Of a stretch of DNA of 20,977 nucleotides, positions 1-17,567 are shown piece by piece. The stretch spans positions 1 to 20,977 of the forward strand of contig JAUXWS010000089.1 in assembly GCA_030685015.1 (NCBI GenBank), given 5' to 3'. The position numbers were made by a program, and so were the translations under genes. Under the pieces are notes generated by a model, which saw only the letters and a list, made by a program, of their open reading frames with translations, did not search any database and was not told the origin of the DNA. Position 1 is the first letter of the stretch. Each line of letters opens with the position of its first letter. This stretch comes from a bacterium (GTDB lineage Bacteria > CAIWAD01).

Positions 1-330
1 TGCCTGAAGGCCGACGAGCCGAAGGCCATCCGCGCGCGGATGGGAACCATGGCCCACACCCGCCGCGACACGCAGCCCCTGCGGGAGTCCAGCTGCGGCA
101 GCGTGTTCAAGCGGCCCACCGGCGATTACCCGGGCCGGCTGATCGAGGCGGCCGGCTTGAAGGGCGCACGGGTGGGCGGCGCCGTCGTCTCCACGATCCA
201 CGCCAATTTCTTCGTCAATGAGGGCGGCGCCACGGCGCGGGACATGCTGGCGCTGGTGGCCCTGGTCAAGCGGACGGTGCGGGAGCGCTTCGGCGTGGAG
301 CTGGAGGAGGAGTTCCGCCATGTCCGTTGA
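1..330 (+). CDS. murB: UDP-N-acetylenolpyruvoylglucosamine reductase MurB, C-terminal part (5' end outside window)
   Basis: MurB reduces UDP-GlcNAc-enolpyruvate to UDP-MurNAc with NADPH and FAD, an early cytoplasmic step of peptidoglycan synthesis. The frame is open from base 1 and ends with TGA at 328-330, leaving 109 residues of the C-terminal substrate-binding domain. The family signature is clear: a QPL segment, then SCGSVFKRP (its second Ser, in GSVF, is the expected general acid), then GDYPGRLIEAAGLKG, GGAVVS and HANFFVNEGGATA. The tail FGVELEEEFR matches the usual FGV-LE-E-R ending that carries the second catalytic acid. The stop overlaps the ftsQ start by 11 nt, the usual murB-ftsQ order of a division/cell-wall cluster. 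The identification is firm; only the N-terminal FAD domain is missing because of the window edge. Confidence 0.95.
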   Translation, partial: CLKADEPKAIRARMGTMAHTRRDTQPLRESSCGSVFKRPTGDYPGRLIEAAGLKGARVGGAVVSTIHANFFVNEGGATARDMLALVALVKRTVRERFGVELEEEFRHVR

Positions 331-1048
331 ACGTGGTCCCCGCCGGGGATGGCGGCGCGCCCTGCGCCTCCTCGTCCTGTCGCTGCTGCCGCTGCTGCTG
401 CTGGCACTGCTGGCGGGATCGATCCTCTGGGTGCGCCGGGGCGAGACCTTCCAGCTGCGCGCCCACGTCATCCGTGGCGCCTGCCTGGCGGACAGCGCGC
501 GCCTGGCGGAGGTCCTCGACGGACGCCGGGGCACGCCCCTGGTCCAGCTGGACCTGGATCTGCTCAAGGCGGAGCTGGCGGGGGACCCCTGGATCACGGG
601 GCTGCGCGTGGTCAAGCGCTGGCCGGACGCCGTGGAGGTGGAGGTGTCCGAGGACGAGGCGCTGGCCTGGGCCATCCGCGACGGCCGGGTGCGGATCCTG
701 AGCACCGGCGGGCGCCTGCTGCCCCTGCCTCGCTCCGGCGTGGCCCTGGACCTGCCCGTGCTGGCCGTCCCCGCCGACGAATGGCTGGCGGCGGCCGCCG
801 GACTGGTGGAGCTGAAGCATGCCTTCCCCGCCCTCTATGCCCAGGTTGCCCGCCTGGAGTGGGGCCAGCACCCGGTCCTGCGGCTGGAGAAGGCCCCGCC
901 GCGCGTCATGTTGAACGCCGGGCAATGGCGGCACGGTCTCTCGTTGCTGAGCATCGTCGCCGCCACGCGCCCGGACCTGCTCCAGCGCGATGGCGAGCTG
1001 GATCTGCGCTTCGTCAATCAGGTGGTATGGAGGAAGGGCCATGTCTGA
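320..1048 (+). CDS. ftsQ: cell division protein FtsQ (POTRA domain)
   Basis: FtsQ is a bitopic inner-membrane protein that links the cytoplasmic Z-ring to FtsB/FtsL and septal wall synthesis. The 242-residue product has an Arg-rich cytoplasmic N-terminus, one very hydrophobic Leu-rich membrane segment at about residues 14-38, then a periplasmic POTRA-like stretch at about 44-117 with the typical DPWI-x-RV-KRWP-x-V-V pattern. The ATG at 320 was chosen because it puts the charged residues before the membrane segment and overlaps the murB end by 11 nt; a longer upstream frame would only read murB in another phase. The stop overlaps the ftsA start by 8 nt, so translational coupling is likely. FtsQ diverges fast, so position and topology carry much of the call. 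Confidence 0.88.
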   Translation: MSVERGPRRGWRRALRLLVLSLLPLLLLALLAGSILWVRRGETFQLRAHVIRGACLADSARLAEVLDGRRGTPLVQLDLDLLKAELAGDPWITGLRVVKRWPDAVEVEVSEDEALAWAIRDGRVRILSTGGRLLPLPRSGVALDLPVLAVPADEWLAAAAGLVELKHAFPALYAQVARLEWGQHPVLRLEKAPPRVMLNAGQWRHGLSLLSIVAATRPDLLQRDGELDLRFVNQVVWRKGHV

Positions 1049-2315
1049 GCCCGTCGTCGCGGCGCTGGACCTTGGCTCCTCCAAGGTCGTGGCCCTCATC
1101 GCCCAGGTGGACAGGAGCGGCATGCTGAACGTGGCCGGCATCGGCTTCGCCCCCAGCCGCGGCGTCCGCCAGGGCCTCATCGTCGACCTGGACGCGGCGC
1201 GGGACACGGTCCTGCAGGTGGTGCGGCACGCCGAGAACATGGCCCGCCTCAAGATGCCGCCCCCCGCCGTGGCCATCTCCGGCGCGCACATCAGCTGCAT
1301 GAACAGCTCGGGCAACATCGCCCTGGCCGGGCAGCCGGGGCGCGGCCGCGTGGTGAGCGAGATCGAGGTGGAGGGCGTGATGGCCAACTCGCAGTCCGTC
1401 CAGCTCTCCATCGACAAGAACCTGCTCCACGCCATTCCCCAGCGCTTCCACCTGGACGGCCAGCCGCTGGTCGACCCATTGGGCCGGGAGGGTTGCCGCC
1501 TGGGCGTCGACACTCACCTCGTGCTGGCCGGCGTGACCAACCGCGGCAACCTGCAGCGCTGCCTCCAGCTGGCCGAGTGCGAGCCGCGCCGCATGGTCTT
1601 CAGTCCGTTGGCGGACGCCCTGGCCGCCCTGGGCGACGAGGACCTCGAGCAGGGCGTCGTGCTGCTCAACTTCGGGGCCGGCACCTGCGACGCCCTCTAC
1701 TTCGTGGACGGGGCGCTGCAGCACAGCTGGGTCTTCCGCTACGCGGGCGACCGCGTGACGCGGGACATCGCCGCCGTGCTCAAGACCACCCTGCTGGAGG
1801 CGGAGGAGCTGAAGATCCGCCACGGCCGGGTCTCGCCCGGGCGGCGCGAGAGCGAGCAACGCCTGACCGTGCCGCTGGTGGACGGCGAGGGCACGCAGAG
1901 CGTCTCCCTGGACATGCTGGGCCGTGTCATGCAGGCCCGCGTGCGGGAGATCCTGCAGCACGTGGTGAAGGAGGCGCGCCGCCTCAGCCTGTTGGAGGGA
2001 CTGGGCGGCGGCCTGGTGCTGACCGGGGGCGGCGCCGCCATGAACGGCCTGGCCGAGTACGCCGAGAGCGTCACCGGCCTGCGCACCCGCCGGGGTCGCT
2101 GCGAGCACTACATCGGCCCGCGCGGCATCCTGGACAACCCGGGCTACCTGACGAGTCTGGGCCTGCTGGCCCTCGAGGCGGCCGGGCTGCCCGAGTTCTC
2201 GCACGAGGGCTTTCCGCTGCTGGACAGGCTGCAGGTCCATGGTCCGGAGGCGGAGCGGCGCAGTGGACGAATGGGGCAATTCTTCAACATCCTGAAGGGA
2301 AGGAGGACGACATGA
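1041..2315 (+). CDS. ftsA: cell division protein FtsA, first of two tandem paralogs (altered phosphate-2 motif)
   Basis: FtsA is an actin-fold ATPase that tethers FtsZ filaments to the membrane and recruits later division proteins. The product is 424 residues, the usual family length. Phosphate-1 is ALDLGSSKV (D10-K15) and the adenosine motif is LTGGGA (Gly 329-331). The phosphate-2 motif reads NFGAGTCD (210-217), so the first Asp, conserved in the actin/Hsp70 superfamily, is Asn here. The C-terminus ends in a short hydrophobic/basic stretch (MGQFFNILKGRR) that could be the membrane-targeting helix. The start overlaps ftsQ by 8 nt, and the stop overlaps the next ftsA-like gene by an ATGA. Family membership is certain. 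Which of the two copies is the main Z-ring tether cannot be read from sequence. Confidence 0.93.
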   Translation: MSEPVVAALDLGSSKVVALIAQVDRSGMLNVAGIGFAPSRGVRQGLIVDLDAARDTVLQVVRHAENMARLKMPPPAVAISGAHISCMNSSGNIALAGQPGRGRVVSEIEVEGVMANSQSVQLSIDKNLLHAIPQRFHLDGQPLVDPLGREGCRLGVDTHLVLAGVTNRGNLQRCLQLAECEPRRMVFSPLADALAALGDEDLEQGVVLLNFGAGTCDALYFVDGALQHSWVFRYAGDRVTRDIAAVLKTTLLEAEELKIRHGRVSPGRRESEQRLTVPLVDGEGTQSVSLDMLGRVMQARVREILQHVVKEARRLSLLEGLGGGLVLTGGGAAMNGLAEYAESVTGLRTRRGRCEHYIGPRGILDNPGYLTSLGLLALEAAGLPEFSHEGFPLLDRLQVHGPEAERRSGRMGQFFNILKGRRTT

Positions 2316-3553
2316 CGACCGGTCGCGCCGTGCAGAGCGCCCTGGACATCGGGCACGGCACCATCCGTGTCATCGTCGCGGAGCGGGTCGAACAGGATCG
2401 GATCAACCTGCTGGGGGCGGGGGCCGCCGCGTCAAAGGGCTTGAGCTGCGGCATGCCCGTCGCCGTCAAGCCGATGATCCTGGCCGTCGAGGAGGCGATC
2501 GCCGCCGCCGAGGCCGCCGCGGGCATCGAGATCGAGGACATCCATCTGGGCGTCTCCGGCGCAGACCTGGACTGCTCGGCCCGCGAGGCGCACCTGCTGG
2601 TGACGCGCAATCCCCAGGACCTGCGCAGCAGCCTCATCCAGGAGAACCACCTACGCCAGCTGCAGGAGCAGGCGGAGAGCGCGCAGACGGTGCAGATCGA
2701 CCGCCAGATCCTTCACCGTCTGCCCCAGGAGTACCTGGTGGACGGCGCCGAGGGCGTGCAGAACCCCCTCGGCCTCCACGGCATGCGCCTGGAGTGCCGC
2801 ACCCACTTCCTCTCCGTGCCCGTCAACACGGTGGAGAGCCTTAAGCGCTGCGTGCAGAAGGCCAGCGTCGAGGTGGGTACGGTCAGCCTGACCACCCTGG
2901 CCTCCTCCGGCCTGCTTAGCGCGGACGAGCGGGAGCTGGGGGTGCTGCTGCTCGACATCGGGGCGGCCAGCACCGACCTCATCCTCCACGCCGAGGGTCG
3001 CGTCTGCCATGCCGCCAGCGTGCCCCTGGGCGGCGCCGCCATCACCAGCGACATCTCGCGCGCCTTCCGCACGCCCAGCTCCGAGGCGGAGCGCATCAAG
3101 CGCACCTACGGCAGCTGCGACGACCGGCTGATCAAGCGCGACGAGCGCTTCACCATCGAGTTCGCCGGCGGGGAGTCCTCGGAACGGGCTTCGCGCAGCC
3201 AGCTCTGCCAAGTGATCCGGCCGCGCATGGAGGAGATCCTCGAACTGGTCGAGCGTCAGCTGGAGCTGGCCAACCTGCGTTGGATGCTGGGCGGCGGCGT
3301 GGTCCTGACCGGCGGCGGCGCCTGCCTGGAGGGCCTGGTCGAGCTGGTGCGCGAGCGCTACGCGCTGCCGGTGCGGCTGGGTTATCCGCGCGGTGTGCAG
3401 GGTCTGGAGTCGGGTCCGGCGGTGCTGGAATGGACGCCCGTCATCGGACTGGTGCAGCATGCCCTGCGCCATGCCCCGGTGAGCGGTGGCGCCCGCTCCC
3501 GCATCACTCTGATGAATTGGGTCAACCGGCTGCGCCGGCAGGTGGCCTTGTAG
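2312..3553 (+). CDS. second FtsA-like actin-fold protein, tandem paralog
   Basis: This 413-residue protein is also in the FtsA family. Phosphate-1 is ALDIGHGTIRV (D12-T17), phosphate-2 is LDIGAASTD with Asp215 and Asp222 kept, and the adenosine motif is LTGGGA (Gly 334-336). The segment between them carries FtsA-type landmarks such as QYLVDG-like EYLVDG, NPLGLHGMRLE and a GGAAITSDI loop. The C-terminus (ITLMNWVNRLRRQ) looks like a well-formed amphipathic membrane-targeting helix, better than that of the upstream copy. The start sits in an ATGA overlap with the first ftsA, behind AAGGAGG. Being next to ftsZ and having intact nucleotide residues, it may be the canonical FtsA, with the upstream gene the specialised one. 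It could instead act as a partner subunit of a mixed filament. Confidence 0.9.
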   Translation: MTTGRAVQSALDIGHGTIRVIVAERVEQDRINLLGAGAAASKGLSCGMPVAVKPMILAVEEAIAAAEAAAGIEIEDIHLGVSGADLDCSAREAHLLVTRNPQDLRSSLIQENHLRQLQEQAESAQTVQIDRQILHRLPQEYLVDGAEGVQNPLGLHGMRLECRTHFLSVPVNTVESLKRCVQKASVEVGTVSLTTLASSGLLSADERELGVLLLDIGAASTDLILHAEGRVCHAASVPLGGAAITSDISRAFRTPSSEAERIKRTYGSCDDRLIKRDERFTIEFAGGESSERASRSQLCQVIRPRMEEILELVERQLELANLRWMLGGGVVLTGGGACLEGLVELVRERYALPVRLGYPRGVQGLESGPAVLEWTPVIGLVQHALRHAPVSGGARSRITLMNWVNRLRRQVAL

Positions 3554-3636: not shown

Positions 3637-4932
3637 ATGTCAGGATTGTTGTTCGAACTGGATGAGCGGCCGCAGGAGCCGCGTGTCCGCATCGTGGTGG
3701 TGGGAGTGGGCGGGGCGGGCGGCAACGCCGTGGACCGCATGATCCGCGCCCAGGTGGGGGGCGTGGAGTTCGTCGTGGTCAACACGGACGCCCAAGCGCT
3801 GGGCCAGAACACGGCCCCGGTCCGGGTGCAGATCGGCAAGACGCTGACGCGGGGCCTGGGCACCGGGGCGCGACCCGAGTTGGCCCGCGACGCCGTGCAC
3901 GAGGATGCCGACGAGCTGCGGGCCCTGCTCGCGGGCGCCAGTCTCGTCTTCGTCACGGCGGGGATGGGCGGCGGCACGGGGACGGGCGCCGCCCCCGAGG
4001 TGGCGCGCCTGGCCCGCGAGGCGGGGGCGCTGACGGTGGGGGTGGTGACAAGGCCCTTCCACTTCGAGATGCGGCCGCGCATGCGCCGCGCCGAGGAGGG
4101 GATCGCCGCCATGCGGGAGCAGACGGACACCCTCATCGTCGTCTCCAACCAGCGCCTCATGAGCATCGTCGATCAGCACCTGGGTCTGCGCGACGCCTTC
4201 AACGTGGCCGACGAGGTGCTCCTCTCCGCGGTGCGGGGCATCAGCGATCTCATCACCGTGCCCGGCCTCATGAACCTGGATTTCGCCGACGTGCGCGAAG
4301 TGATGAAAGTGCCGGGCGAGGCCCTGATGGGCGTGGGCATGGCCGAACTGGGGGCGGGCGCCTACGGCGCCCATCTGGCCGCCGAGCAGGCCATCTCCAG
4401 TCCCCTCCTGGACGAGTACTCCGTGCATGGCGCCCAGCGGCTGCTGGTCAACATCACGGGCGGGGAGACCATGTCGCTCATGGACGTCAACGACGCCATG
4501 CAGACCATCGCCGAGGCGGTGGGCGAGGACGCCGAGATCTTCCTGGGCGCCGTCACCGACCCCGCCCTGGCCGATCGCATCTGCGTGACGGTGATCGCCA
4601 CCGGGCTGGATCCGGCCGCCCGCCGCGAGGAGGAGAGCAGCCCGGCCCGCGCCCTGCCGGCCCGGCCGCTGGCCGCCTCCACCGTGCGCCCGCCGCGTCC
4701 GGCCGTCGCCGCCGAGAACCGCCCCGGGGCGCCGCTCCTCATCAGCTGGGAGCCATCCGAGACCGAGCACCTGTCCGTACAGCATCTGACCCCGGCGCGG
4801 GCGGCCCAGGAGGCCGAGCCCGCCGAAGGAAGCCGCCACGTGCCCTTCCGGCCCGCCTCCCGGGAGCCGGCGCCGGCCCAGCCGCAGGAGGACCTCAACA
4901 CGCCAGCCTTCCTGCGCCGCACCATGGATTGA
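3637..4932 (+). CDS. ftsZ: cell division GTPase FtsZ
   Basis: FtsZ is the tubulin-like GTPase that polymerises into the cytokinetic ring. The 431-residue product shows the nucleotide loop GVGGAGGNAV (23-32), NTDAQAL, the tubulin signature GGGTGTG (111-117), the region before the synergy loop (SNQRLMSIVD), and DFADVREVM. A Pro/Ala-rich disordered linker of about 100 residues follows the globular core. The final 14 residues, DLNTPAFLRR with a short tail, are the conserved C-terminal peptide that binds FtsA. The ATG at 3637 is preferred over the in-frame ATG at 3574: it has GGGGAGA 6-12 nt upstream, and FtsZ N-termini are short. The 83-nt gap from the second ftsA is larger than the overlaps upstream, so ftsZ may also be expressed separately, though no promoter was found there. 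Confidence 0.97.
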   Translation: MSGLLFELDERPQEPRVRIVVVGVGGAGGNAVDRMIRAQVGGVEFVVVNTDAQALGQNTAPVRVQIGKTLTRGLGTGARPELARDAVHEDADELRALLAGASLVFVTAGMGGGTGTGAAPEVARLAREAGALTVGVVTRPFHFEMRPRMRRAEEGIAAMREQTDTLIVVSNQRLMSIVDQHLGLRDAFNVADEVLLSAVRGISDLITVPGLMNLDFADVREVMKVPGEALMGVGMAELGAGAYGAHLAAEQAISSPLLDEYSVHGAQRLLVNITGGETMSLMDVNDAMQTIAEAVGEDAEIFLGAVTDPALADRICVTVIATGLDPAARREEESSPARALPARPLAASTVRPPRPAVAAENRPGAPLLISWEPSETEHLSVQHLTPARAAQEAEPAEGSRHVPFRPASREPAPAQPQEDLNTPAFLRRTMD

Positions 4933-5142: not shown

Positions 5143-6000
5143 ATGCGCCGCACGCTGCGCACCGCCCTGCCGACCCTGCTCTTCCTGACCGTCGCCGGTC
5201 TGGCGCAGGGCGCCTCGTCACCGCCACCCGCCTGGGAGCGCACGGCCACGGCTGGATTGAATCTGACCCAGGCCACTTTCGACAACTGGCAGGGCGGTGG
5301 CGAGGATGCCACGGCCTGGCAGACCGAGCTGAACGGGAAAGCCGTGCGCCACCTGGGCCGGGCCGACTGGGAGTTCACGGGCAAGCTGGCCTACGGCGAA
5401 ACCAAGCTGGGGGACCGGGACTTCCGCAAATCCACCGATGATTTGAAACTGGGCACCACCTACACTTTCAACCGCGAACTGTACATCCGCCCCTACCTGT
5501 CCGGCAGCTTCATGACCCAGCTGGCCAACGGCTACATCTATGACGACGCCGTAGGCACCAAGGCGCAGAACTCGGCCATCTTCGAGCCGGCCTACCTGAC
5601 GGAAAGCGCCGGCGTGGGGATCGAACCCGTCGCCAATCTCAAGCTCAAGCTGGGCGCCGCCGCCAAGCAGACCATCTCCAGCGCGGACTATCCCTGGGCT
5701 GACGACCCGGAGACCACCGGCGAGGTCGAGATCCTGCGCAGCGAGTTCGGCGCCGAGGCCAAGGCCGACTACAGCCATGCCTTCAACGAGAACGTCTCGC
5801 TGAAAAGCAGCCTCGTGCTTTTCTCCAACCTGAAGGCCTTCGACGAGATCGACAGCGACTGGGACACCAGCCTCGTGGCCAAACTGACCAAGTCCATCCA
5901 GATGAGCTTCAATGTGCGCGTCCTGCGCGACGCCGACATCAGCCGGGTCAGGCAGTGGAAGCAGAACCTGGCCATCGGGGTGGTCTACACCCTGCTGTAG
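5143..6000 (+). CDS. DUF3078 family outer-membrane-type protein
   Basis: The 285-residue product begins with a signal peptide (MRR, then a hydrophobic stretch to about residue 20, cleavage probably near AQG-A at 22-24). The mature part opens with LNLTQATFDNWQGGGED (39-55), the hallmark of DUF3078 proteins known mostly from Bacteroidota and relatives. The rest alternates polar and hydrophobic residues in short strands (for example FTGKLAYGETKLG, LKLGTTYTFN, YIRPYLSGSF) and ends with AIGVVYTLL, as in a beta-barrel protein. A role in the outer membrane is inferred; no substrate is known. The ATG at 5143 follows GAGGAG by 8-9 nt and is the start that gives a proper signal peptide; an upstream in-frame extension would lie in the hairpin region. 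It is probably a single-gene transcript between ftsZ and the repeat element. Confidence 0.85.
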   Translation: MRRTLRTALPTLLFLTVAGLAQGASSPPPAWERTATAGLNLTQATFDNWQGGGEDATAWQTELNGKAVRHLGRADWEFTGKLAYGETKLGDRDFRKSTDDLKLGTTYTFNRELYIRPYLSGSFMTQLANGYIYDDAVGTKAQNSAIFEPAYLTESAGVGIEPVANLKLKLGAAAKQTISSADYPWADDPETTGEVEILRSEFGAEAKADYSHAFNENVSLKSSLVLFSNLKAFDEIDSDWDTSLVAKLTKSIQMSFNVRVLRDADISRVRQWKQNLAIGVVYTLL

Positions 6001-6025: not shown

Positions 6026-6073
6026 GATCGGTATCGGTATCGGTATCGGTATCGCTATCGGGATCAGGATCAA
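6026..6073 (+). repeat. hexanucleotide array, left arm (TATCGG-type units)
   Basis: Eight consecutive 6-bp units in strict phase: GATCGG, three TATCGG, TATCGC, TATCGG, GATCAG, GATCAA. Read on the opposite strand this is the CGATAC/CGATCC pattern of the right arm at 6245-6352, so the two arrays are inverted. The array starts 26 bp after the DUF3078 stop codon and lies outside any supported gene. Confidence 0.9.
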
Positions 6074-6244: not shown

Positions 6245-6352
6245 CGATCCCCATCCCAATTGCGATCCCGATACCGATCCCGATACCGATAGCGATCCCG
6301 ATCCCGCTAGCGATCCCGATCCCGATAGCGATAGCGTTAGCGATAGCGATGA
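6245..6352 (+). repeat. hexanucleotide array, right arm (CGATNN units)
   Basis: Eighteen in-phase 6-bp units, mostly CGATCC, CGATAC and CGATAG, with a few drifted copies (CCATCC, CAATTG, CGCTAG, CGTTAG). Changes fall mainly in the last two bases of the unit, so CGAT is the conserved core. It is inverted relative to 6026-6073 and ends 32 bp before the candidate promoter of tRNA-Arg. Conceptual translations are only dipeptide repeats (Asp-Pro/Asp-Ser or Ile-Pro/Ile-Ala), so it is not treated as coding. Confidence 0.92.
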
Positions 6353-6426: not shown

Positions 6427-6500
6427 GCCTCCGTAGCTCAGGTGGATAGAGCGGCGGTTTCCTAACCCGTAGGTCAGAGGTTCGAGTCCTCTCGGGGGCA
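6427..6500 (+). tRNA. tRNA-Arg (anticodon CCU)
   Basis: A 74-nt cloverleaf. The acceptor is GCCTCCG (6427-6433) with CGGGGGC (6493-6499). The D-stem is GCTC/GAGC with a GG-containing loop, the T-arm is AGAGG-TTCGAGT-CCTCT, and the discriminator is A6500. The anticodon CCT is at 6461-6463, reading AGG codons. No CCA is encoded. The anticodon stem is imperfect: the loop-closing pair (T6458 opposite C6466) is a mismatch and the outermost pair (G6454-T6470) is a wobble. All other stems are sound, so it is probably a real and expressed tRNA. Confidence 0.93.
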
Positions 6501-15326: not shown

Positions 15327-17567
15327 ATGATGATTGAAAAGTCCATCGACCTGGACGGCCGCCGGCTGAGCTTCCAGATCGGCAAGGTGGCCCGGCAGGC
15401 CCATGGTTCGGTGTGGGCGCGCTTCGAGGACACGGTGATCCTGGCCGCCGTCTGCGCCGAGACCAAGCCCCGTCTCGGGCAGGATTTCTTCCCCCTGCAG
15501 GTGGAGTACCGCGAGAAGCTCTATTCCGCCGGCCGCTTTCCCGGCGGCTTCTTCAAGCGCGAGGCCCGTCCGGCCGAGAGCGAGGTGCTCAACAGCCGCC
15601 TGATCGACCGGCCCCTCCGTCCCCTCTTCGACGAGGGCTTCAGCAACGAGACCCAGATCCACGCCACTGTCTTCAGCTACGACCGCAGCTGCGATCCCGG
15701 CCCCCTGGCCTGCTGCGCCGCCAGCCTGGCCCTCTGCGCCAGCCCCATCCCCTTCCGGCGCCTGGTGGGCTCCGTGCAGGTGGCCCGCATCCATGGCGAG
15801 CCCGTCGTCAATCCCAGCCTCGACCAGCTGGCCATGAGCGACGTGGAGATGGTGGTGGCCGCCACCAAGGAGTCCATCACGATGGTGGAAGGCGAATCGG
15901 GGGAGATCAGCGAGAGCGAGATGCTGGAGCTGATCCGCTTCGCCCACGAGCGCATCCGCCGCATCATCGCCCTCCAGGAGGAGGTGCTGGCCGAGCTGGG
16001 CGCCATCGAGAAGTGGCCGGTGACGCCGCCCGAGGTGGACGAGGCGCTCAAGGCCGCCTTCGAGACGGCCGCCCGGCCCGAGATGACGCGCCTCTGCGCC
16101 ATCGCCGACAAGACGGAGCGCAACGCCGCCTACGACGCCCTCAAGACCTCCCTGCTCGCCCCCTATGTGGAGGCGGCCGAGGGCGGCGCGGCGGAGGCCC
16201 TCAAGGCCCTGGACGAGGCCAAGGCCCTGGTCGGCAAGGTTCTGCACGACCAGATGGGCGAGGTGATGCGCCAGGCCATCGTCGAGCAAGGCCGCCGCCT
16301 GGACGGCCGCGGCACGGCGGAGATCCGCCCCATCACCTGCGAGGTGGACGTGCTGCCCCGCACCCACGGCAGCGCCCTCTTCACCCGCGGCCAGACCCAG
16401 TCCCTGGGCACCGTCACCCTGGGCACCGGCCAGGACGCCCAGCGCATGGACGGGATCTGGGGCGAGAAGAGCCGCAACTTCATGCTGCACTACAATTTCC
16501 CGCCCTACAGCGTGGGCGAGGTGCGGCGCCTGGGCTCCACCGGCCGCCGCGAGATCGGTCACGGCAACCTGGCCGAGCGCGCTCTCAAGGGCCAGGTCAT
16601 CCGCGACAGCTTCCCCTACACCATCCGCATCGTGAGCGAGATCCTGGAATCCAACGGCTCCAGCTCCATGGCCTCGGTCTGCTCCGGCACCCTGGCCATG
16701 ATGGCGGCGGGCGTCCCCATGCACAAGCCGGTGGCGGGCATCGCCATGGGCTTGGTGATGGAAAACAACAAGGTGGCCGTCCTCTCCGACATCCTGGGCG
16801 ACGAGGACCACCTGGGCGACATGGACTTCAAGGTCTGCGGCACGCGGGACGGCATCACCAGCTTCCAGATGGACATCAAGATCGACGGCCTCTCCTTCGA
16901 GATCATGGAGCGGGCGCTGCTGCAGGCCAAGGAGGGCCGCCTGCACATCCTCGGCAAGATGGCCGAGTGCCTGGCCGCGAGCCGGCCCGAGCTGTCGCCC
17001 TTCGCGCCGCGCCTGGAGGCGGTGGTGGTGCCGGTGGACAAAATCGGCATGATCATCGGGCCCGGCGGCAAGATGGTGCGGGAGATCCAGGAGTCGACCA
17101 AGACCAAGATCGACATCGCCGACGACGGCACGATCACCATCGCCAGCGAGAACAACGAGAACCTGATGCGCGCCGTCAACTGGATCCGCGACATGGTGGC
17201 GGAGGCCGAGGTGGGCAAGGTCTACACCGGCAAGATCGTCTCCATCGTCGAGTTCGGCGCCTTCGTGGAGATCATGCCGGGCAAGGAGGGCCTCCTCCAC
17301 ATCAGCGAGATCGACTGGGCGCGCACCGAGCGCGTGGAGGACGTGCTGAAGGTGGGGGACAAGATCGAGGTCCTGCTCCAGAGCGCGGAGAACAACAAGC
17401 TCAGCCTCTCGCGCCGCGCCCTGCTGCCCAAGCCCGAGGGCTACGTGGAGCGTCCGCGCCCGCCGCGTCCGGAGGGCGACCGGGGCCGGGGCGGGGATCG
17501 CGGCGGCCGGGGCGGCGGCGACCGGGGCCGCGGCGGCTCGGGCGGTGGCGGCGGACGGCGCTACTAA
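15327..17567 (+). CDS. pnp: polyribonucleotide nucleotidyltransferase (PNPase)
   Basis: PNPase degrades RNA 3'-5' by phosphorolysis and can add 3' tails. The 746-residue protein has the first RNase PH domain (with AGRFPGGFFKREARP and RLIDRPLRPLF), an all-helical linker, and the second RNase PH domain with TRGQTQSLGTVTLGT and the catalytic LGDEDHLGDMDFKV. A KH domain follows with GMIIGPGGK at 574-582, then an S1 domain from about 629 to 700. The last 38 residues (from about 709) are an Arg/Gly/Asp-rich tail with repeated RGG and DRGRGG units ending in GGGGGRRY, longer and more RGG-like than usual. ATG 15327 follows AAGGAG by 6 nt; ATG 15330 is an equal alternative. The upstream TTG frame lacks homology. 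Confidence 0.98.
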   Translation: MMIEKSIDLDGRRLSFQIGKVARQAHGSVWARFEDTVILAAVCAETKPRLGQDFFPLQVEYREKLYSAGRFPGGFFKREARPAESEVLNSRLIDRPLRPLFDEGFSNETQIHATVFSYDRSCDPGPLACCAASLALCASPIPFRRLVGSVQVARIHGEPVVNPSLDQLAMSDVEMVVAATKESITMVEGESGEISESEMLELIRFAHERIRRIIALQEEVLAELGAIEKWPVTPPEVDEALKAAFETAARPEMTRLCAIADKTERNAAYDALKTSLLAPYVEAAEGGAAEALKALDEAKALVGKVLHDQMGEVMRQAIVEQGRRLDGRGTAEIRPITCEVDVLPRTHGSALFTRGQTQSLGTVTLGTGQDAQRMDGIWGEKSRNFMLHYNFPPYSVGEVRRLGSTGRREIGHGNLAERALKGQVIRDSFPYTIRIVSEILESNGSSSMASVCSGTLAMMAAGVPMHKPVAGIAMGLVMENNKVAVLSDILGDEDHLGDMDFKVCGTRDGITSFQMDIKIDGLSFEIMERALLQAKEGRLHILGKMAECLAASRPELSPFAPRLEAVVVPVDKIGMIIGPGGKMVREIQESTKTKIDIADDGTITIASENNENLMRAVNWIRDMVAEAEVGKVYTGKIVSIVEFGAFVEIMPGKEGLLHISEIDWARTERVEDVLKVGDKIEVLLQSAENNKLSLSRRALLPKPEGYVERPRPPRPEGDRGRGGDRGGRGGGDRGRGGSGGGGGRRY

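Follow-up and report, generated by a model that had tools for sequence, protein, structure and literature searches.

Two old and distinct FtsA paralogs encoded side by side upstream of a single ftsZ in a small bacterial phylum

The FtsZ ring can be held to the membrane by redundant tethers that both bind the FtsZ tail, such as FtsA and ZipA in E. coli or FtsA and SepF in B. subtilis. Components of the ring can also be doubled into long-diverged paralogs, as is the case for the FtsZ pairs of archaea. The FtsZ1 and FtsZ2 proteins of chloroplasts likewise correspond to long-diverged paralogs forming one division ring (PMC8142252). The canonical FtsA, in contrast, is encoded by a single gene of the dcw cluster, as in E. 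coli, Vibrio maritimus and T. maritima. In the E. coli and Vibrio proteins, domain IC provides the lateral contact of antiparallel double filaments, involving residues M96, P98, S118, R153 and Q155, and borders the FtsN site (PMC7613929, PMC11323482). The control that FtsA exerts on the divisome through its polymer form, be it miniring, arc or double filament, is not yet understood and has been approached mostly through point mutants of a single protein.

The window analysed here is a stretch of 20,977 nucleotides (contig JAUXWS010000089.1 of assembly GCA_030685015.1; GTDB lineage Bacteria; CAIWAD01) from a member of a little-known small phylum that has two old, distinct FtsAs encoded side by side before a single ftsZ, whereas nearly all bacteria examined have one. 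The gene order in the window is ftsQ-ftsA1-ftsA2-ftsZ (Table 1). This bears out the initial annotation, which had described two ftsA genes in tandem between ftsQ and ftsZ, overlapping by an ATGA and clearly different in sequence; the two proteins share 29% identity over 363 residues. The sequence AAGGAGG is present upstream of the ftsA2 start. Farther along the window, the interval from the end of an ORF at 6000 to a tRNA-Arg(CCT) gene (6427-6500) contains two hexanucleotide arrays, at 6027-6065 and 6245-6350 (ATCGGT and CGATAC/CGATCC units), which are inverted relative to each other and enclose some 180 bp, and a PNPase-like ORF (about 15330-17567) has a RG/RGG-rich tail encoded by short tandem repeats (17475-17567).

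Table 1. Coordinates of the division genes and of the features discussed in the text (positions in the window).
Feature	Position	Strand	Evidence and remarks
ftsQ	320..1048	+	243 codons including stop; overlaps the start of ftsA1; POTRA_1 domain above cut-off
ftsA1	1041..2315	+	424 aa; TIGR01174 302.7 bits; Pfam FtsA and SHS2_FTSA; orthologs in 5/5 phylum genomes
FtsA1 domain IC (SHS2)	1281..1523	+	residues 81-161; Pfam SHS2_FTSA 81-161; longer loop, 17 residues
FtsA1 phosphate-2 Asn (D210N, E. coli numbering)	1668..1670	+	alignment; D in 40/42 controls; N also in T. maritima FtsA
FtsA1 IIB residues equivalent to E. coli R300 and E303, presumed FtsZ-tail site	1938..1949	+	kept in 10/10 sequences
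FtsA1 C-terminal basic segment, weak amphipathic helix in the window genus	2262..2312	+	hydrophobic moment scan
ATGA stop-start overlap ftsA1/ftsA2	2312..2315	+	read from the sequence
ftsA2	2312..3553	+	413 aa; TIGR01174 315.6 bits; Pfam FtsA and SHS2_FTSA; orthologs in 5/5 phylum genomes
FtsA2 phosphate-1 motif LDIGHGTIRV, without the usual lysine	2342..2371	+	K in 90% of 42 controls
FtsA2 domain IC	2561..2809	+	about residues 84-166; SHS2_FTSA 105-166; loop 19 residues; IC retention 0.58
FtsA2 IIB residues R305 and E308 (E. coli R300 and E303)	3224..3235	+	kept in 10/10 sequences
FtsA2 C-terminal amphipathic helix SRITLMNWVNRLRRQVAL	3497..3550	+	hydrophobic moment 0.72 versus 0.78 in E. coli FtsA
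ftsZ	3637..4932	+	431 aa; TIGR00065 393.1 bits; sole ftsZ found in the genome
FtsZ C-terminal tail EDLNTPAFLRRTMD	4888..4929	+	translation; tail motif kept in 5/5 phylum genomes

The two proteins resemble canonical single FtsAs in their family, domain plan with the IC/SHS2 insert, position between ftsQ and ftsZ and IIB site, and FtsA2 also in its strong C-terminal amphipathic helix, which is weak in FtsA1 of the window genus. They differ from them in that the phylum has two diverged tandem copies, with a remodelled IC carrying a longer loop and phosphate motifs altered in each copy. As in the FtsZ pairs of chloroplasts and archaea, a ring component is doubled into old paralogs that would serve one ring, but there it is FtsZ that is doubled, whereas here it is the putative actin-like tether, FtsZ being single.

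The family tests applied here place both copies in FtsA. Each exceeds the cut-off of the TIGR01174 ftsA equivalog (175.85 bits) by more than 120 bits and contains the FtsA-specific SHS2 (IC) domain, with PF14450 and PF02491 above their cut-offs; the PF02491 match in FtsA2 begins only at profile position 16. The possibility raised in the initial annotation that one copy falls outside FtsA, for example with PilM, did not materialize: the NCBIfam PilM profile gave 57.3 bits for FtsA2 (cut-off 133) and no match for FtsA1, and the NCBIfam MreB profile at most 30.9 bits for either copy (cut-off 293). In Pfam, where the cut-offs for MreB_Mbl and PilM_2 are low (27), FtsA2 exceeds both (36 and 35), but its FtsA score is far higher (108). 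FtsA1 and FtsA2 are no more identical to each other than either is to the single FtsAs found in other phyla (some 30-39% for the best hits). AlphaFold2 monomer models of FtsA1 and FtsA2, computed with three close sequences as input, had mean pLDDT values of 32 and 36 and were unusable.

Five genomes (G000 to G004, G000 being that of the window) represent the phylum in our sample and belong to two families and three genera; completeness is 67% for G004 and at least 90% for the other four. All five present ftsA1, ftsA2 and ftsZ in the same order, so that the tandem, whose occurrence across the phylum the initial annotation had proposed to check, is not specific to this assembly, and this conservation excludes chance. 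The two ftsA genes touch or overlap everywhere: the overlap is 4 bases in the window genus (the window, G001 and G002) and reads TGATG in G004, whereas one base separates the genes in G003. No adjacent FtsA pair was detected (E <= 1e-30) among 381 genomes from outside the phylum, a survey of 327 genera that is itself a sample, beyond which other lineages could hold pairs. A literature search of titles and abstracts, covering few subscription papers, returned no description of paired FtsA paralogs.

Eleven of these outside genomes gave two FtsA hits. In G035, G151 and G158 they stem from a fragment or from one gene divided between contigs, in G054, G196 and G338 they involve a FtsA-like protein of roughly 700 aa, and in G136, G273, G222, G080 and G339 they reflect a second FtsA on a separate contig. 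Two further lineages have two FtsAs on different contigs, one being a small phylum (G136/G273) and the other comprising G222, G080, G387 and G388. They are similar to the phylum studied here in having two FtsA-family proteins per genome, but in G136, G222 and G080 just one copy adjoins ftsZ and the other lies at a different locus, uncoupled from it. The FtsZ of G136 (L140, 4145-5332) has EDLYKAPTIK at its C-terminus and lacks the PxFLR tail normally seen there.

In a maximum-likelihood tree, the five FtsA1 and the five FtsA2 sequences form separate groups (supports 100/98 and 99/92, respectively). A first tree that included very long rows had drawn the FtsA2 of G004 to another long branch; once these rows were removed, it joined FtsA2. 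Each group also has a diagnostic residue found in none of the controls, Q at E. coli position 48 in all FtsA1 and H at position 108 in all FtsA2. From the separate clades and these residues, the two copies therefore diverged before the split of the two families. The union of both clades had a support of 19/55, and grouping them was not rejected (p-AU 0.44); the data are compatible both with a duplication in the stem of the phylum and with the acquisition of one copy from elsewhere.

We compared the subdomains of the two copies with those of 42 control FtsAs, scoring as retention the fraction that a sequence keeps of the alignment columns with conservation of 80% or more among the controls (subdomain limits are approximate, in E. 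coli numbering, and the ten FtsA1 and FtsA2 sequences are non-independent). Judged by this measure, domain IC is disproportionately diverged and remodelled differently in each copy, whereas IIB is ordinary. IIB retention is 0.80-0.90 in both copies, against a control mean of 0.83, and the residues preserved there include the equivalents of E. coli R300 and E303, two residues with an established role in the binding of FtsZ by FtsA. IC retention falls to 0.50-0.75 in FtsA1 and 0.33-0.58 in FtsA2, for a control mean of 0.89. Subtracting the mean retention of the remaining subdomains from that of IC gives -0.08 to -0.36 for the two copies versus 0.00 +/- 0.07 for controls (minimum -0.13), and eight of the ten sequences lie below all 42 controls, the exceptions being FtsA1 of the window genome and of G003. 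The most divergent controls show no IC-specific loss; in several of them the loss falls on IIB. In the loop bounded by E. coli positions 95 and 108, the two copies have 17-19 residues, compared with 12-14 in 40 of the 42 controls. Among the lateral-contact positions, R153 is retained in nine of the ten sequences, position 96, mostly hydrophobic in controls, is N (FtsA1) or H (FtsA2) in the window genus, and at position 155 the FtsA1 proteins of this genus carry G or A instead of E.

A single FtsZ with a canonical PxFLRR tail is present in each of the five phylum genomes. Neither SepF nor ZipA was detected in any of them (four at least 90% complete, G004 67%), in a search aimed at these two families, which would overlook an FtsA-independent tether of unknown family. 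Unlike in the FtsA/ZipA and FtsA/SepF combinations, both putative tethers would here be FtsAs. Purifying selection acts on both FtsA copies about as strongly as on FtsZ (NG86 dN/dS of 0.24-0.35 for the FtsAs and 0.17-0.31 for FtsZ).

The membrane-helix-like end that the initial annotation saw in both copies holds for FtsA2 and only in part for FtsA1. The FtsA2 helix is strong in all five genomes (hydrophobic moment 0.71-0.91, against 0.78 in E. coli). That of FtsA1 is short and weak in the window genus and stronger in G003 and G004 (0.62 and 0.74).

We lean slightly towards the view that the two anciently diverged paralogs jointly tether one FtsZ ring to the membrane with split roles. The two-subunit tethering suggested by the initial annotation fits the single FtsZ with its normal tail, the lack of detected SepF and ZipA, the abutting or overlapping genes, the purifying selection and the preserved IIB; the mixed filament that it also put forward is less secure. 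Both FtsAs would be made together, as suggested by the stop-start coupling of their genes throughout the five genomes, and each could dock the FtsZ tail via IIB. FtsA2, with its strong C-terminal helix, would be the main membrane anchor, and FtsA1, with the weaker helix of the window genus, would join chiefly by binding FtsA2 and FtsZ. The remodelled IC would most likely mean that FtsA1-FtsA2 contacts have taken the place of self-pairing or been added to it, or that the late partners differ between the copies. Against this joint tether, the weak FtsA1 helix is confined to the window genus and the helix is strong in G003 and G004. The account is drawn from the sequences of five genomes, one of them 67% complete.

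A narrower form of the joint tether, an obligate mixed double filament with one strand each of FtsA1 and FtsA2 in which the remodelled IC favours unlike pairing, is plausible and compatible with the IC-specific divergence, though we consider it less likely than not; this divergence could also reflect changed partners rather than unlike pairing. The strongest rival, possible though short of probable, is a division of labour in which no mixed filaments arise and FtsA1 and FtsA2 polymerise separately, with different partners, for instance as early tether and late activator or in a special division mode. It agrees with the different divergence in the two copies of IC, which borders the FtsN site, with the differences between them in nucleotide motifs and membrane helices, and with the second FtsA found at a separate locus in some other lineages. 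The stop-start coupling is less easily reconciled with it, as is the polar residue at position 96, a lateral contact, in both copies of the window genus, which may weaken self-pairing. Most of the probability remaining beside the mixed filament and these separate polymers goes to a looser FtsA1-FtsA2 partnership with some contact.

The nucleotide-binding motifs bear on a third explanation. Phosphate-1, phosphate-2 and adenosine motifs, reported in both copies by the initial annotation, are indeed recognisable and the adenosine motif is intact in each, but both proteins depart from the consensus: in FtsA1 of the window genus phosphate-2 reads LLNFGAGT (D210N), and FtsA2 has lost the lysine at position 19 in all five genomes (T/T/T/T/R), phosphate-2 being GAAST in the window copy. 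Together with the weak FtsA1 helix of the window genus, these departures could suggest that one copy is regulatory or degenerating, either FtsA1 (weak helix, D210N) or FtsA2 (K19 lost) being inactive itself and modulating the other copy, whose polymers it would cap or disperse. We regard this as improbable, for both copies are under purifying selection similar to that on FtsZ, each is retained throughout the five genomes, and the same N occurs in phosphate-2 of T. maritima FtsA, a protein crystallised together with nucleotide. Because of this shared residue, D210N is not proof of lost ATP binding, and we dropped that interpretation. Finally, that one copy is a PilM or MreB, that the pair is an assembly error or that it is a recent duplicate was rejected, the chance of any of these being negligible: despite the weak secondary PilM match of FtsA2, its family scores place it with FtsA, the pair recurs in five genomes, and 29% identity with separate ortholog clades indicates that it is neither recent nor artefactual.

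If true, the mixed double filament would be a two-component FtsA tether of a kind not described in the literature searched. An FtsA split in two, with the FtsZ site kept and the lateral-contact domain changed, would amount to a natural separation-of-function experiment, and the existence of two distinguishable FtsA subunits makes the double-filament model testable.
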